Shown here: positions 6,782 through 54,766 of the stretch, in pieces
Layout of the letters: each line of letters begins with the position of its first letter
Numbering within the stretch: position 1 is the first letter of the stretch
Source: Alphaproteobacteria bacterium
GTDB taxonomy: Bacteria; Pseudomonadota; Alphaproteobacteria; Micropepsales; Micropepsaceae
Length of the DNA: 64,000 bases
NCBI GenBank assembly: GCA_025361185.1
Contig: JANYAR010000135.1
Coordinates: 1 to 64,000 of the forward strand
Direction of reading: 5' to 3'
The notes under the pieces: generated by a model
Database searches by the model: none
The model's input: the letters and a program-made list of their open reading frames with translations, nothing else
Told to the model about the DNA's origin: nothing
Program-made: the position numbers and the translations under genes

Positions 6782-7257
6782 CACGCAGAACCACCAGCGA
6801 GGAAGAGCGCAAACTGTTCGAGCAAACCTTCAAGGAAGGGCGCCCTGTCAAGGCGGGGATGTCCAAGGCCCCCGCGAAGAAGAAAACCGGCGCCTCCCGT
6901 CCCAGCGGCGTCAATGGGGCCACCCAGGACCGCCTCAAACGCGGCCTGATCGAACCCGATGCGCGTATCGACCTGCATGGCATGACGCAACTGGCCGCCC
7001 ATCGCACTTTGTTTGCCTGGATGACGACGGCGCATCAGCGCGGGCTGCGCCTGGCGCTGGTGGTCACCGGCAAGGGCAATCCCCGGAATGACGAAAACGC
7101 GCCCTGGATGATGTCGCCGCATGGCGTGCTCAAACAGATGGTGCCGCGCTGGCTGAATGAGCCGGAACTGGCGGCCCTGATTGCCGCAGTGCATCCCGCC
7201 CACACCAAACACGGCGGCGATGGCGCGCTTTATGTCTATTTGCGAAAGCCGCGATGA
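6778..7257 (+). CDS. Smr/MutS2 C-terminal domain endonuclease-like protein
   Basis: RIDLHGMTQLAAHRTLFAWM...LALVVTGKGNPRNDE Smr motif. Confidence 0.9.
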   Translation: MTRRTTSEEERKLFEQTFKEGRPVKAGMSKAPAKKKTGASRPSGVNGATQDRLKRGLIEPDARIDLHGMTQLAAHRTLFAWMTTAHQRGLRLALVVTGKGNPRNDENAPWMMSPHGVLKQMVPRWLNEPELAALIAAVHPAHTKHGGDGALYVYLRKPR

Positions 7258-7667
7258 AACAGGCTTTCCACACCCTGAGGGTGCCAACCAAAGGACCGGG
7301 GCTCTATGAATTCACCGGCGCGGTGCAGGAATTCGCCCAAGGCGCGGGGATCGAAAACGGTTTGCTGACCTGTTTTGTTCGCCACACCTCGGCGTCATTG
7401 CTGATTCAAGAGAATGCCGATCCGGATGTGCAAAGCGATCTGCAGGATTTCTTTGCCCGCCTGGCGACCAACGGCATGAACTTTCGCCATACCGCCGAAG
7501 GGCCCGACGACATGCCTTCGCATATCCGCGCGGCGCTGACGCAAACATCCATCGGAATTCCGCTGCACAAGGGGCGGCTGGCGCTGGGCGCCTGGCAGGG
7601 GATTTATCTGTTCGAGCATCGCGACGCGCCGCACCGGCGCGAAGTGATGTTGCATTTAATTGGGTGA
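7254..7667 (+). CDS. YjbQ family (UPF0047) protein
   Basis: GLLTCFVRHTSASLLIQENADPDVQSDL...GTWQ-type C-terminus (LGAWQGIYLFEHRDAPHRR). Confidence 0.92.
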   Translation: MKQAFHTLRVPTKGPGLYEFTGAVQEFAQGAGIENGLLTCFVRHTSASLLIQENADPDVQSDLQDFFARLATNGMNFRHTAEGPDDMPSHIRAALTQTSIGIPLHKGRLALGAWQGIYLFEHRDAPHRREVMLHLIG

Positions 7668-7765
7668 GAAGCGGTTCGCGAAGCGAACGGTCCGTAGCGA
7701 CAGCGTATGGACGGCCGGCGGACCATTGCGAGCGACGAACGCCCGTAGCGCAAGCGAAGGGCCGG
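7662..7765 (+). repeat. Intergenic repeat family A, copy A1 (most diverged)
   Basis: GGGTGAGAAGCGGTTCGC...GGACCATTGCGAGCGACGAACGCCCGTAGCGCAAGCGAAGGGCCGG; shares both ends with 27315-27401 (inverted) and 40895-40983. Confidence 0.75.
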
Positions 7766-7769
7766 GGAG

Positions 7770-8786
7770 CTAGATCAGCCCCGCCTTCTCAGCGAGTTCC
7801 TTGAGCGAAGTCTCCGGACGCGCGCCGTAATGCGAAATCACTTCCGCTGCTGCCAGGGCGCCCAATCGCCCGCAATCGGCCAGCCCTTTGCCGCGCGTCA
7901 TGCCATAGAGGAATCCGGCGGCGAACTGGTCGCCCGCGCCGGTGGTGTCGACCACGCGCGTAACCGGCGCGGCCGCGATCTCGTGCACCATGCCTTCCTC
8001 GACAATCACGCAGCCCTTGGCCGAGCGCGTCAGCGCGGCGATGCCGCCCCATTTCTTCGCGCCCGCGATCACGCCGTCAAAATCCTCGACCCGGAACAGC
8101 GCCTTGGCCTCTTCCTCATTGGCGAACAGGATGCTCACATCCTTGTCCAGCAGATGCAGGAATTCGTCGCGGAACCTGCCGACGCAGAACGGATCCGAAA
8201 GGGTGAGGGCAATGCGCCCGCCCGCGCCCTTCACCGCCGCGATGGCCTTGCGCGAGGCCTGCTTGGCGCTCTCCTCGTCCCACAGATAGCCTTCGATATA
8301 GAGGATGCGCGCCGAGGCGACCTCCTCTTCATCCACATCGTCGGCAACCATCTCGCGGCAGGCGCCCAGGAAGGTGTTCATGCTGCGCTGGCCGTCCGGC
8401 GTCACCGCGATCATCGAGGAGGCGGTGGAGGCGCCGGCCTTGCTGCTGCCATTGTGAAACGTGACGCCTGTCGCCGCCATGGAATCGCCGAACACCTTGC
8501 CCAAGCGGTCGTCGGAGACCTTGCCCAGGAACAGGCCATTGCCACCCAGCGACGCCAGCCCCGCCATGGTATTGGCGGCGGAGCCGCCGGCCACTTCATG
8601 CAGGCTGCTCATGGTCTGCTGATTGTCGGCCAAGGCCTTGAGCAGTTCCTTGGCGCGGTACTCGTCGATCAGGGTCATCGAGCCCTTGGCGATACGGTGT
8701 GTCAGCAGAAAGCGGTCGTCCACCGAGGCGATGATGTCCACAATGGCGTTGCCCAGACTGGCGACATCATATTGCTGATGTGTCAT
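7770..8786 (-). CDS. PfkB-family carbohydrate/adenosine kinase
   Basis: GGSAANTMAGLASLGG...DTTGAGDQFAAGFLYG PfkB signatures. Confidence 0.92.
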   Translation of the reverse strand: MTHQQYDVASLGNAIVDIIASVDDRFLLTHRIAKGSMTLIDEYRAKELLKALADNQQTMSSLHEVAGGSAANTMAGLASLGGNGLFLGKVSDDRLGKVFGDSMAATGVTFHNGSSKAGASTASSMIAVTPDGQRSMNTFLGACREMVADDVDEEEVASARILYIEGYLWDEESAKQASRKAIAAVKGAGGRIALTLSDPFCVGRFRDEFLHLLDKDVSILFANEEEAKALFRVEDFDGVIAGAKKWGGIAALTRSAKGCVIVEEGMVHEIAAAPVTRVVDTTGAGDQFAAGFLYGMTRGKGLADCGRLGALAAAEVISHYGARPETSLKELAEKAGLI

Positions 8787-26484: not shown

Positions 26485-27285
26485 ATGAATACCGCGATCC
26501 ACATGGCACCGGAGCATCACGCCGCGTTCGCGGAAAAATCCAAGGTCAATATCAAGGATCTGAATTTCTATTACGGCACGTCCAAGGCGCTCAAAAACAT
26601 CACGCTGCCGTTGATGGACCGCAAGGTGACTGCCTTTATCGGCCCGTCCGGCTGCGGCAAGTCCACCTTGCTGCGCGCCATCAACCGCATTTTCGAGCTC
26701 TATCCCAATCAGCGCGCCGAAGGTGAAATCCTGATGGACGGCGAGAACCTGCTGAAGACCAAGGACCTCAATCTGCTGCGCGCCCGCATTGGGATGGTCT
26801 TCCAGAAACCGACACCGTTCCCGATGTCCATCTATGACAATGTCGCGTTCGGCATCAAACTGTATGAGCGCATCCCGCGTTCGGAGATGGATGGCCGCGT
26901 CGAGCATGCGCTGACCCGCGCGGCGATCTGGGGCGAGGTGAAAGACAAGCTGGGCGCGTCCGGCCTGTCGCTCTCGGGCGGCCAGCAGCAGCGCCTGTGT
27001 ATCGCCCGCAGTGTGGCGACGCGGCCCGAGGTGATCTTGATGGACGAGCCCTGCTCGGCGCTGGACCCGATTTCCACCGCCAAGATCGAGGAGCTGATCG
27101 AAGAGCTGGCGGCCGAATACACTATCGTGATCGTCACCCACAATATGCAGCAGGCCAGCCGCGCCAGCGATTATACCGCCTTCATGTATCTGGGTGAGCT
27201 TGTCGAATATGGCGCGACGGAAAAGATTTTCACCGCGCCGGATAACAAGCGCACCGAGCAATATATTACGGGTCGGTTTGGTTAG
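26485..27285 (+). CDS. pstB: Phosphate ABC transporter ATP-binding protein PstB
   Basis: [59 protein letters not shown]. Confidence 0.97.
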
Positions 27286-27314: not shown

Positions 27315-27401
27315 CCCGGCCGCTCGCCTAAGCTCGCGGCGTTCGTCGCTTGCAATGGTCCACTGGACCATTGCATTCGCTCCGCGAACCGCTCCTCACC
27401 C
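27315..27401 (-). repeat. Intergenic repeat family A, copy A2
   Basis: Reverse strand GGGTGAGGAGCGGTTCGCGGAGCGAATGCAATGGTCCAGTGGACCATTGCAAGCGACGAACGCCGCGAGCTTAGGCGAGCGGCCGG; near-identical to 40895-40983. Confidence 0.9.
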
Positions 27402-28943
27402 AATATAATCCGCCGCGACCGTCTCATCGCGGCGCGGCGCCGTGGATGTCGCATTGAGGATCAGGCTGAGGGTGAAGCCCACCGCGATATTCAGCACCAG
27501 CGCGCTCAAGGCGGCATAGCAGGGGATGGTCAGCCCAAAAATATGCAGCGGGTAAATCGAGCTTTTAAGGCCCAGCTGCACCACCATCACTGTACCGGCA
27601 CCGATGCCCGCAGCCCACCCCGCCAGCAGGGCCCAGGGATTGAAGAAGCGGGTGTAAAGCGCGATCAGCACCGCAGGCAGTGTCTGGCAGATCCAGATGC
27701 CGCCCAGAAGCTGCAACTGGATGGCGTAGGAGGTCTGGAACAACAACACGAAAAACAACGCCCCCAGCTTCAGCGCCAGCGACGCCAATTTGGCGGCGCG
27801 CGCTTCTTGCGCGGGGGTGCAACCGGGCGCGATGAACTCCTTGTAGATATTGCGGGTGAACAGGTTGCCGCTGGCGATCGCCATGATCGAGGCCGGCACC
27901 AGCGCGCCAATGGCGATGGCGGCAAAGGCGACGCCCGCGAACCACGGCGGGAACATGTGCAGGAACAGCGCGGGGATCGCGAAGTTGTTGCCGAAGCTGG
28001 CAAACCCGGACGCATATTCGGGCATGCCTTTGACCCCGGCGGCAACCGCCGTGTAGCCAAGCAGCGCCAGCAGCGCCAGCGCCAGCGAATAGATGGGCAG
28101 CAGGATCGCGTTGCGCCGTATCGCCATGCTGCTGGCCGAGGACAGCAATCCCGTCAGCGAATGGGGATAGAGAAACAGCGCCAGCAGCGAGCCCACAGCC
28201 AGGCTGGCATAGGCAAAGCCCTGGCCCAGATTGTCGCCGGTCCCCGGCGTCAGAAGCAACATTTTGGGATCGATGCTGGAAAACACCTTTTCATAACCCC
28301 CCAGTTGCGACGGGATCACGACGATCGCCGTCAGCACCGTGACATAGATCAGGACATCCTTGACCACGGCGGTCAGTGCGGTCCCGCGCAATCCGCTGAC
28401 ATAGGTGTAGGCCGCCAACACCAGGAAGGCGACGATCAGCGGCAGGTTTGGAATGCCGCCCAGGGTGGTGGGAATGCCCAGCGCCGCGATCACCACCTGC
28501 ATTCCTGCGAGCTGCAACGCGACATAGGGAATGGTGGCGACGATGCCGGTAAGCGCCACGGCGAGCGCCAGCGGCCTGTTGCCGAAACGGCCGCGCACGA
28601 AGTCGGCGGCGGTGACATAGCCGTGCTTGCGGGCCACGGCCCACAGGCGCGGGAAACAGAGAAACAGTACTGGATACATCAGGATGGTGTAGGGTACCGC
28701 GAAGAACCCCGTGGCGCCCGCGCCGAACATCAGCGCCGGAACGGCGATAAAGGTGTAGGCGGTATAGAGATCGCCGCCCAGCAGGAACCAGGTGATCAAG
28801 GTGCCGAAGCTGCGCCCGCCCAGGCCCCATTCATGCAGGCTGTGCAGATCGGCCTTGCGCCAGCGGGTCGCGACAAAACCCAGGCACGCCACCAGCGCGA
28901 ACAGGCAAAGAAAGACGGCGAGCGAAACCGGATTGGCGCTCAT
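27396..28943 (-). CDS. Sodium:solute symporter family protein
   Basis: Multi-TM SSS protein; VTAADFVRGRFGNRPLALAVALTGIVATIPYVALQLAGM. Confidence 0.9.
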   Translation of the reverse strand: MSANPVSLAVFLCLFALVACLGFVATRWRKADLHSLHEWGLGGRSFGTLITWFLLGGDLYTAYTFIAVPALMFGAGATGFFAVPYTILMYPVLFLCFPRLWAVARKHGYVTAADFVRGRFGNRPLALAVALTGIVATIPYVALQLAGMQVVIAALGIPTTLGGIPNLPLIVAFLVLAAYTYVSGLRGTALTAVVKDVLIYVTVLTAIVVIPSQLGGYEKVFSSIDPKMLLLTPGTGDNLGQGFAYASLAVGSLLALFLYPHSLTGLLSSASSMAIRRNAILLPIYSLALALLALLGYTAVAAGVKGMPEYASGFASFGNNFAIPALFLHMFPPWFAGVAFAAIAIGALVPASIMAIASGNLFTRNIYKEFIAPGCTPAQEARAAKLASLALKLGALFFVLLFQTSYAIQLQLLGGIWICQTLPAVLIALYTRFFNPWALLAGWAAGIGAGTVMVVQLGLKSSIYPLHIFGLTIPCYAALSALVLNIAVGFTLSLILNATSTAPRRDETVAADYIG

Positions 28944-40147: not shown

Positions 40148-40900
40148 ATGACGGCGTTTGATCTGACGGGAAAGGTCGCTCTGGTGACGGGCGGCAATGG
40201 CGGCATCGGGCTGGGCATGGCCAAGGGGCTCGTCGATGCCGGGGCACTGGTGATGGTCGCGGGCCGCGATGCTGAAAAGAATCGGCGCGCGGTCGAAGGC
40301 CTGGGTGCCGGCGCCGATGCGATTGTGGTGGACATGGCGCAGGACAATGGCGGAAGGGACGCGGTGGCCGCGGCGGTCAAGAAATTCGGCCGCCTGGACA
40401 TCGTGGTGAACAATGCCGGCATCAACATTCGCAAGTCACCACAGGACTATTCTCTTGAGGAATGGCACAGCGTGCTGAATATCAACTTGACCAGCATGTT
40501 CGTCTGCTGCCAGGCTGCCTATCCGCACTTGCGCGCGCGCGGCGGCAAGATCATCAACATCGGCTCCATGATGTCCATTTTCGGCGCGTCCTTTGCCGCG
40601 CCCTATGGCGCCAGCAAGGGCGCGGTGGTGCAGCTGACCAAGTCGCTGGCCGCCGCCTGGGCCGCCGACAATATCCAGGTCAATGCCGTGCTGCCCGGCT
40701 GGATTGACACCGAGCTGACCAAGGGCGCGCGCGAACAGGTCCAGGGACTGCATGAAAAGGTGCTGGCGCGCACCCCAGCCGGGCGCTGGGGTCTGCCCGA
40801 TGACATGGCCGGGATCGCCGTGTTCCTGGCCAGCCACGCGTCGGACTTCATCACCGGCACGGCTATCCCGGTCGATGGCGGTTACGCGGCACAGGGGTGA
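40148..40900 (+). CDS. SDR family oxidoreductase
   Basis: GKVALVTGGNGGIGLGMAKGLVDAGALVMVAGRD; NNAGIN; YGASKGAVVQLTKSLA. Confidence 0.94.
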   Translation: MTAFDLTGKVALVTGGNGGIGLGMAKGLVDAGALVMVAGRDAEKNRRAVEGLGAGADAIVVDMAQDNGGRDAVAAAVKKFGRLDIVVNNAGINIRKSPQDYSLEEWHSVLNINLTSMFVCCQAAYPHLRARGGKIINIGSMMSIFGASFAAPYGASKGAVVQLTKSLAAAWAADNIQVNAVLPGWIDTELTKGAREQVQGLHEKVLARTPAGRWGLPDDMAGIAVFLASHASDFITGTAIPVDGGYAAQG

Positions 40901-40983
40901 GGAGCGGTTCGCCGTAGGCGAACGAAATGGTCCAGTGGACCATTTCGAGCGACGAACGCCGCGAGCTTAGGCGAGCGGCCGGA
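40895..40983 (+). repeat. Intergenic repeat family A, copy A3 (second partial right-end unit at about 41019-41048)
   Basis: GGGTGAGGAGCGGTTCGCCGTAGGCGAACGAAATGGTCCAGTGGACCATTTCGAGCGACGAACGCCGCGAGCTTAGGCGAGCGGCCGG. Confidence 0.9.
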
Positions 40984-41049
40984 GAGCTGTCGAAACCCCG
41001 CTCCGAACCCAGCGCCGGGACGCCGCGAGCTAAGGCGAACGGCCGGCTC

Positions 41050-41922
41050 TCAGCCCCAGGGACCACGATTTACAGGCGTGGTGTCAGAACCCGCCATCGC
41101 CTTGAGCCGGGCGATGCGTTCTTCGGTGGAAGGATGAGTGGCGAACAGGCCCGAGATGCCGCCATGCAGCGGATTGATGATGAACATATGTGCCGTGGCA
41201 GGGTTGGCGTCGGCGGGATAATTCTCGATGCGCTGCGCGGCGTGTTCGATCTGGCCCAGCGCGCTCGCCAGCCACAGCGGCCGCCCGGTGATTTCCGCGC
41301 CCGCGCGGTCGGCTTCGAATTCGCGCGAGCGCGAGATCGCCGCCTGCACCAGCACGGCCGCGATGGGCGCAAGCATGGTCACCAGCAGCACGCCCACGAA
41401 CCCCAAGGGACGATCGCGGTCGCGGCTGCCGCCCATGAAGAAGGCCATATTGGCCAGCATGGAAATCGCGCCCGCGATCACCGCGGTGATGGTCATGGTC
41501 AGGGTGTCGCGATGTTTCACATGCCCCAGCTCATGCGCCAGAACGCCCGCCAGTTCTTCCTGGTTCACTTGCGCGAGCAGGCCGGAAGTGACGCAGACCG
41601 CGGCATGCTCGGGATTGCGTCCGGTGGCAAAGGCGTTGGGCTGCGGATTCTCGGTGATGAAAACCTTGGGCATGGGAAGCTGCGCCTGGGCCGCCAGCTT
41701 GGTCACCAGCTGATAGAGATCGGGTGCGCTCTGCGCGTCGACTTGGCGCGCGCCATACATGGACAACAGCACCTTGTCGGAATTCCAATAGGCAAACAGG
41801 TTGGTGGCCAGCGCAAAGGCAAAGGCGATCAAAACGCCAGTGCCGCCACCCAGGACCGCACCAACGGCCAGGAACAGGCCGGTCATTGCCGCCATCAGGA
41901 TCCCGGTTCGCAGCGTATTCAT
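41050..41922 (-). CDS. htpX: Protease HtpX
   Basis: [33 protein letters not shown] HExx[19 protein letters not shown]. Confidence 0.96.
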
Positions 41923-54196: not shown

Positions 54197-54766
54197 GTGC
54201 TAGCCGCCGCCGTCATTCCCAGGCCAGTGCCGCATTGTCCGGCGCTGGTGCTGAACGCTGATCACCGCCCACTCAGCTATTATCCGCTCTCGCTCTGGTC
54301 ATGGCAGGACACCATCAAGGCGGTGTTCCTGGAACGGGTGAATATCCTGGAAGAATATGACCGGGTGGTGCACTCGGCCCGCTTCGAAATGCGGCTGCCT
54401 TCGGTGGTCTCGCTCAAGACCTATATCCGGCCGGCGCGCCGCCCCGCCTTCACCCGGTTCAATGTTTTTCTGCGCGATCAGTTCGAATGCCAATATTGCG
54501 GCGACCCCAAGGATCTGACCTTCGATCACGTGATCCCGCGCAGCAAGGGCGGCCGCACCACCTGGGAGAATGTCGTCACCGCTTGCAGCCCCTGCAATCT
54601 CAACAAGGGCGGGCGCATGCCCAGCCAGGCCAAGATGCATCCGCGCATCAGGCCGCATCAGCCTTCGGTGAACGAGCTGCGCGAACATGGGCGCAAATTT
54701 CCGCCGAACTATCTGCATGATTCCTGGGCGGACTATCTGTATTGGGATAGTGAACTAGAGCCGTAG
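54197..54766 (+). CDS. HNH endonuclease
   Basis: NVFLRDQFECQYCGDPKDLTFDHVIPRSKGGRTTWENVVTACSPCNLNKGGRMP. Confidence 0.93.
   Translation: MLAAAVIPRPVPHCPALVLNADHRPLSYYPLSLWSWQDTIKAVFLERVNILEEYDRVVHSARFEMRLPSVVSLKTYIRPARRPAFTRFNVFLRDQFECQYCGDPKDLTFDHVIPRSKGGRTTWENVVTACSPCNLNKGGRMPSQAKMHPRIRPHQPSVNELREHGRKFPPNYLHDSWADYLYWDSELEP

Follow-up and report, generated by a model that had tools for sequence, protein, structure and literature searches.

A dispersed, structured repeat of about 88 nt at gene 3' ends in Alphaproteobacteria that often includes the stop codon in its covarying basal helix

The window analysed here is a 64,000-nt stretch of the genome of an uncultured alphaproteobacterium (Micropepsaceae; contig JANYAR010000135.1, positions 1 to 64,000) in which a yjbQ gene, a symporter gene and an SDR gene each end within a copy of the same element (Table 1). 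The three copies described in the initial annotation were all recovered as covariance-model hits, and in each of them GGG-TGA is indeed the final codon and stop of the flanking gene and the neighbour is convergent (PfkB at 7770, an ABC ATPase at 27285 and an M48 peptidase at 41050). The right-hand consensus that they were said to share does not hold for the yjbQ copy, which reads CGTAGCGCAAGCGAAGGGCCGG and has an extra hairpin insert. In the sister genome (G041), the element occupies the same SDR stop codon (L317), and the orphan HP3-type unit of the SDR/M48 gap is missing from the corresponding gap.

Table 1. Element copies, helices of the best conserved copy, host genes and related sites in the 64,000-nt window
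Feature	Position	Strand	Basis or remark
Element copy, consensus type, best conserved in the window, 89 nt	40895..40983	+	Covariance model R1, 108.4 bits, E 5e-19 in own genome
P1 5' strand GTGAGGAGC	40897..40905	+	Covariation across 168 copies; TGA at 40898-40900 is the SDR stop
HP1 hairpin GTTCGCC-GTA-GGCGAAC	40907..40923	+	Two-sided changes at 7/7 pairs; 92% of cells paired
HP2 hairpin GAAATGGTCC-AGT-GGACCATTTC, conserved GGTCC/GGACC apex	40924..40946	+	Two-sided changes at 10/10 pairs; 94-96% of cells paired
P1 3' strand GCGACGAAC	40949..40957	+	Pairs with 40897-40905 via two tandem G.A motifs
HP3 hairpin GCCGC-GA-GC-TTAG-GC-GA-GCGGC, then CGG as right boundary	40958..40979	+	Two-sided changes at 8 or 9 of 9 pairs
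Second element copy; overlaps the SSF symporter stop 27396-27398	27315..27401	-	Covariance model, 94.6 bits
Third element copy; additional hairpin inserted ahead of HP2; covers the yjbQ stop (7665-7667)	7662..7766	+	Covariance model, 53.3 bits
yjbQ/UPF0047 gene, one codon shorter through the insertion	7254..7667	+	PF01894
SSF sodium:solute symporter gene, ends in element	27396..28943	-	PF00474
SDR gene, ends in element; start codon approximate	40148..40900	+	PF13561/PF00106
Orphan unit of HP3 type, ACGCCGCGAGCTAAGGCGAACGGCCGG, between the convergent SDR and M48 genes	41020..41046	+	93% match with the right end of the element
Empty site, TAG stop codon; sister G041 has the element there	54764..54766	+	Own/sister comparison

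The element is about 88 nt long and has four predicted helices on the sense strand: P1 (GUGAG...CGAAC, with tandem G.A pairs) is the basal helix that closes HP1 and HP2, and HP3 then follows. This covarying multi-helix fold, with the stop codon within its basal helix, is the main feature of the element and was overlooked in the initial annotation. The base of P1, GTGAG/CGAAC, is kept in 103 of 168 copies, and compensated variants occur among the others. Changes in the bases of the stop codon are matched across the helix (GCGAG/CGAGC, GAGAG/CGAGC, ATTAG/CTAAT, ATTGA/TCAAT and TTGAG/CGAAA), and the inner GA/GA gives way to Watson-Crick pairs in many copies (GC/GC, CC/GG, AC/GT); ATTAG/CTAAT and ATTGA/TCAAT are likewise switches from G.A to Watson-Crick pairing.

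Two-sided changes were found at 34 of 35 pairs in the alignment from the own genome (A3) and at 35 of 35 in that from relatives (A4), compared with about 23 in shuffles, counts that are biased towards structure because both alignments were fitted to the covariance model. None of 500 shuffles matched the observed number, and sliding the pairing partner collapses the signal. In the first MAFFT alignment, which was not fitted to the model, 13 pairs had two-sided changes and the shuffles gave 5.9. Read on the gene-sense strand, the copies hold 130 G.U pairs and 73 A.C mismatches, and this excess, together with the tandem G.A pairs, indicates that this strand carries the structure, whether as RNA or as single-stranded DNA. 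The interior of the fold is modular, with some copies having HP2 only or a single short hairpin between GGTGAG and CGAACGC; a search for the short-hairpin form (GGTGAG...CGAACGC) gave 22 matches and its reversed-pattern control gave one.

The family is far larger than chance would allow and much larger than the three copies of the window. A covariance model trained on 25 copies found 95 in the 3.5-Mb own genome at E <= 0.01 (best E 5e-19), and a blastn search with the 27315-27401 copy, as proposed in the initial annotation, placed it at 46 sites there. The sister genome has 58 copies. Among 24 congeners searched, 13 have the element (1 to 47 copies) and 11 have none, and it is absent from all 16 genomes of other families searched. 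Across 240 genomes from the class, all other matches fall in two genomes, each of another family: two good matches lie 2 kb apart in one (G107:C7:11778-13979; L359) and a single good match in the other (G208:C3:277359-277447), which suggests rare horizontal transfer. The exact core pattern matched only Alphaproteobacteria in public genomes, nearly all of them metagenome-assembled; a plasmid search returned no match, and the core sequence was not found in the literature searched. At one locus of the own genome (L010, C88:14201-14517), three copies of the same orientation are packed into about 320 bp, and two of these directly adjoin each other. The own genome also has minimal relatives made of a single short hairpin, GGTGAG-stem-GNCCAA-stem-CGAACGC (for example C8:20393-20423, C51:108-138, C143:6603-6633 and C83:82955-82985), and these carriers of the GTGAG/CGAAC kernel are either reduced versions of the element or members of another family of smaller repeats.

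Position relative to genes was scored for 150 copies with adequate flanks, using the stretches around the copies and a codon-based gene finder, so that gene calls outside the window are codon-model predictions. The upstream gene runs in the sense direction of the element in 120 of the 150. In a third of the copies (51/150) the upstream stop is exactly the TGA of P1 (GTGAG, offset 0), while every other offset accounts for fewer than 7, and a stop lies within -10 to +35 nt of the element in 88 of 150. The register noticed in three copies therefore extends to the family. The final codon before the element's stop is GGG in 28 of 52 cases and GAG in 13, and annotators should be aware that Gly-stop or Glu-stop C-termini in this clade can derive from the element. 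Among 148 copies with assigned context, 57 lie in convergent and 6 in divergent gaps, and of those between codirectional genes 61 are in sense and 24 in antisense, whereas intergenic length predicts 12.6% for convergent, 57% for tandem and 30% for divergent gaps. Convergent gaps are thus enriched about threefold, and the proposal that every copy lies between convergent genes stands as an enrichment but not as a rule that defines the family. Some copies even lie inside operons whose genes are separated by a few tens of nt, as in dapA-element-smpB-element (genes that we take to be dapA and smpB from their protein sequences). No shared function is evident among the genes that bear the element.

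Empty orthologous and sister sites prove that the element inserts at pre-existing gene ends. None of 16 yjbQ orthologues from relatives has the element; they end in ...G-(E/D/T/V), and the sister gene reads GGC GCT TAG and ends in ...G-A, while in the window the last codon has been replaced by the element's stop. Similarly, the symporter site is empty in all 11 orthologues, and the sister genome ends this gene as DYIG* with GGGTGAGATTTT. The empty sister site carries ...ATCGGGTGAGATTTT and a canonical terminator; in the own genome the element takes this place. The reverse case is the empty site of Table 1, which reads CCG TAG in the window and CCG TGA GCC... in the sister, so that the copy sits exactly on the stop and leaves the protein end unchanged. 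In five further pairs from the own and sister genomes (L134, L034, L128, L132, L039), the insertions fall between about -9 and +6 nt relative to the former stop; those at L128 and L132 are out of frame and lengthen the protein. Comparison of orthologous gene ends, which the initial annotation had recommended, accordingly places the insertions within about 10 nt of existing stops, and the suggestion of a dispersed element that targets or captures stop codons is borne out by the filled and empty sites and by the rarity of GTGAG at control stops (13 of 789 genes, about 1.6%). A GTGAG target present beforehand was rejected on that rarity and because most empty sites are without GTGAG. In most filled sites GG precedes the element, and empty sites read ...GG|..., with no short fixed target duplication in the filled and empty pairs.

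Two loci show longer duplications. In G165 (L358, 1390-1609), a copy directly follows 21 nt of the duplicated 5' end of tRNA-Gly (GGTGCGGGTGTAGTTCAATGG), and an intact tRNA-Gly gene lies downstream, so that a 21-nt direct repeat flanks the insertion. In the sister counterpart of window positions 7200-7300 (L319), the element comes after a copy of yjbQ that is truncated to 14 codons and in frame with the TGA; a second, diverged end of the upstream gene and an intact yjbQ come next, an apparent duplication of about 100 nt around the insertion.

Several stop codons bear the element in more than one species, with a maximum of three or four. At such shared sites (L145/L276, L156/L263 and L169/L335) the flank is conserved and the stems have been replaced: P1, HP1 and HP2 are wholly different between L169 and L335 and between L145 and L276, with the flanks and sometimes HP3 kept. 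Orthologous copies are 70% alike, compared with 65% for random pairs (SD 8). Modules are replaced or evolve very fast as the fold persists.

With regard to a mobilising enzyme, no Y1/RAYT transposase (PF01797) was found in the own genome, which is 100% complete, or in several other copy-bearing congeners, and the presence of PF01797 is uncorrelated with copy number among congeners. A RAYT-mobilised REP was rejected on these grounds. In G008 (L286, C226:14519), a RAYT-like Y1 gene has one element copy about 1.1 kb away and is not flanked by copies; similar genes also occur in element-free congeners.

Three other explanations have to be weighed. The strongest rival is a purely selfish element whose fold serves mobilisation, which we regard as possible but on the unlikely side. 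Its hairpins would be needed only as single-stranded DNA for a transposase, GG sites near gene ends would be preferred, the stop overlap would be a by-product of the left-end GTGAG, and selection would spare insertions of low cost, which alter a few residues at most. This explanation accommodates the patchy distribution within the genus, the recent insertions, the GG that precedes filled and empty sites, the out-of-frame insertions and the tRNA-Gly direct repeat around one copy. Moreover, antisense copies are no less intact than sense copies; the Watson-Crick fraction is 0.81 and 0.79 for copies that are antisense or far from stops, and 0.80 for those on stops, so that a function confined to the sense orientation is not suggested. 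However, it sits poorly with the finding that the own genome and several other copy-bearing congeners have no Y1 transposase, and avoidance of damage predicts that insertions 10-100 nt past stops should be no less common than exact ones, but such insertions are rare. P1 also compensates changes on the stop-codon side, and this compensation and the sharp stop register favour a function.

A domesticated bidirectional transcription terminator, which the initial annotation had offered as one option, could explain the enrichment in convergent gaps and the symporter gap, where the element stands in place of the sister's canonical terminator. Intrinsic termination is nevertheless unsupported, as a U-tract of the terminator type follows only 1 of 88 elements and canonical terminators are equally frequent after element-bearing and control gene ends (12/88 vs 67/454). 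Copies between closely spaced operon genes, and G.A pairs that function on one strand only, further make this reading improbable. Lower still in our estimation, and very improbable, is a conserved gene-specific 3' regulatory RNA; the stop codons shared by as many as three or four species would fit it, but the element is found at dozens of unrelated genes, many sites in relatives are empty, tandem triple copies exist and stems are replaced at shared sites. The existence of filled and empty site pairs contradicts it.

Given that intrinsic termination is unsupported, that the own genome has no Y1/RAYT, and that ribosome stalling has been reported for E. coli REPs no more than 15 nt from a stop (PMC12306157), an mRNA 3'-end element with REP-like behaviour was chosen as the preferred reading. 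We lean, with modest confidence, towards a REP-like mobile element, clade-specific, dispersed and about 88 nt long, which inserts at gene 3' ends, becomes the 3' UTR with the stop codon in its basal helix, and has a role at the mRNA 3' end. A ribosome terminating at UGA would hold P1 open; on its departure P1 could close, taking in the stop codon, with the hairpins building a compact 3'-end structure. Such a structure may slow ribosomes or 3'-to-5' decay, an effect proposed for stop-proximal E. coli REPs. A putative enzyme would join the element after GG, in most cases no more than a few codons from the stop, in a spread that may be ongoing or recent. That the fold acts in mRNA is something we infer, and it could equally serve as single-stranded DNA in mobilisation. 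A bolder and rather doubtful extension is that the element founds a class of its own among mobile regulatory RNAs: the stop codon would be a structural part of a covarying three-way junction, termination would gate the folding of the mRNA 3' end, and spread to stop codons would depend on an enzyme other than any known REP transposase.

Whether the clustering of E. coli REPs beside stops reflects insertion targeting or function is a general question. Placement is far sharper here and the stop lies inside a covarying helix, and since the element moves over the time that separates sister species, with no RAYT present, the question becomes directly testable with engineered stems. Stop-sited copies in a genome without a RAYT also imply a mobilising activity that recognises gene ends.

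Compared with known systems, the element resembles intrinsic (Rho-independent) terminators in placing GC-rich hairpins at gene ends, often convergent, but it has no U-tract, is found inside operons and may be followed by canonical terminators. Its UGAG...CGAA tandem G.A arrangement recalls domain II of the hammerhead ribozyme and other tandem-GA motifs; a hammerhead was rejected since this motif is the only common feature, the CUGA core and cleavage site are absent, and P1 continues as a paired helix. A known RNA family was likewise rejected, as Rfam gave no match in the window at gathering thresholds and 11 sampled loci yielded no credible hit at E <= 1, and an attC-like site was set aside because the consensus is without the RYYYAAC/GTTRRRY boxes that we take such sites to have. 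Caulobacter CIR, enterobacterial RU/ERIC and Neisseria Correia elements are small mobile intergenic repeats, and the comparison with them is by description. Like these repeats and MITEs, the element is small, non-coding, dispersed, clade-specific and inserted in pre-existing loci. Unlike MITEs, its ends (GGGTGAG...GGCCGG) form no terminal inverted repeats and there is no consistent target duplication; a search for Y1 transposases found no parent transposase. The closest likeness is to REP/BIME sequences with RAYT (TnpA-REP), which are also short palindromic extragenic repeats in around a hundred copies, enriched just past stops in convergent or codirectional gaps, with mosaic modules and compensatory changes that preserve structure (PMC2817692, PMC12306157). 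A REP is one hairpin of 20-40 nt with a GT(A/G)G head, whereas the element has four helices, a 5' GGGTGAG, a tandem G.A basal helix with the stop codon inside it, and no RAYT gene in the genome or found flanked by copies. In its high-copy extragenic siting near stops the element acts like REPs, but it departs from them in two defining features, the head with its hairpin unit and the RAYT.
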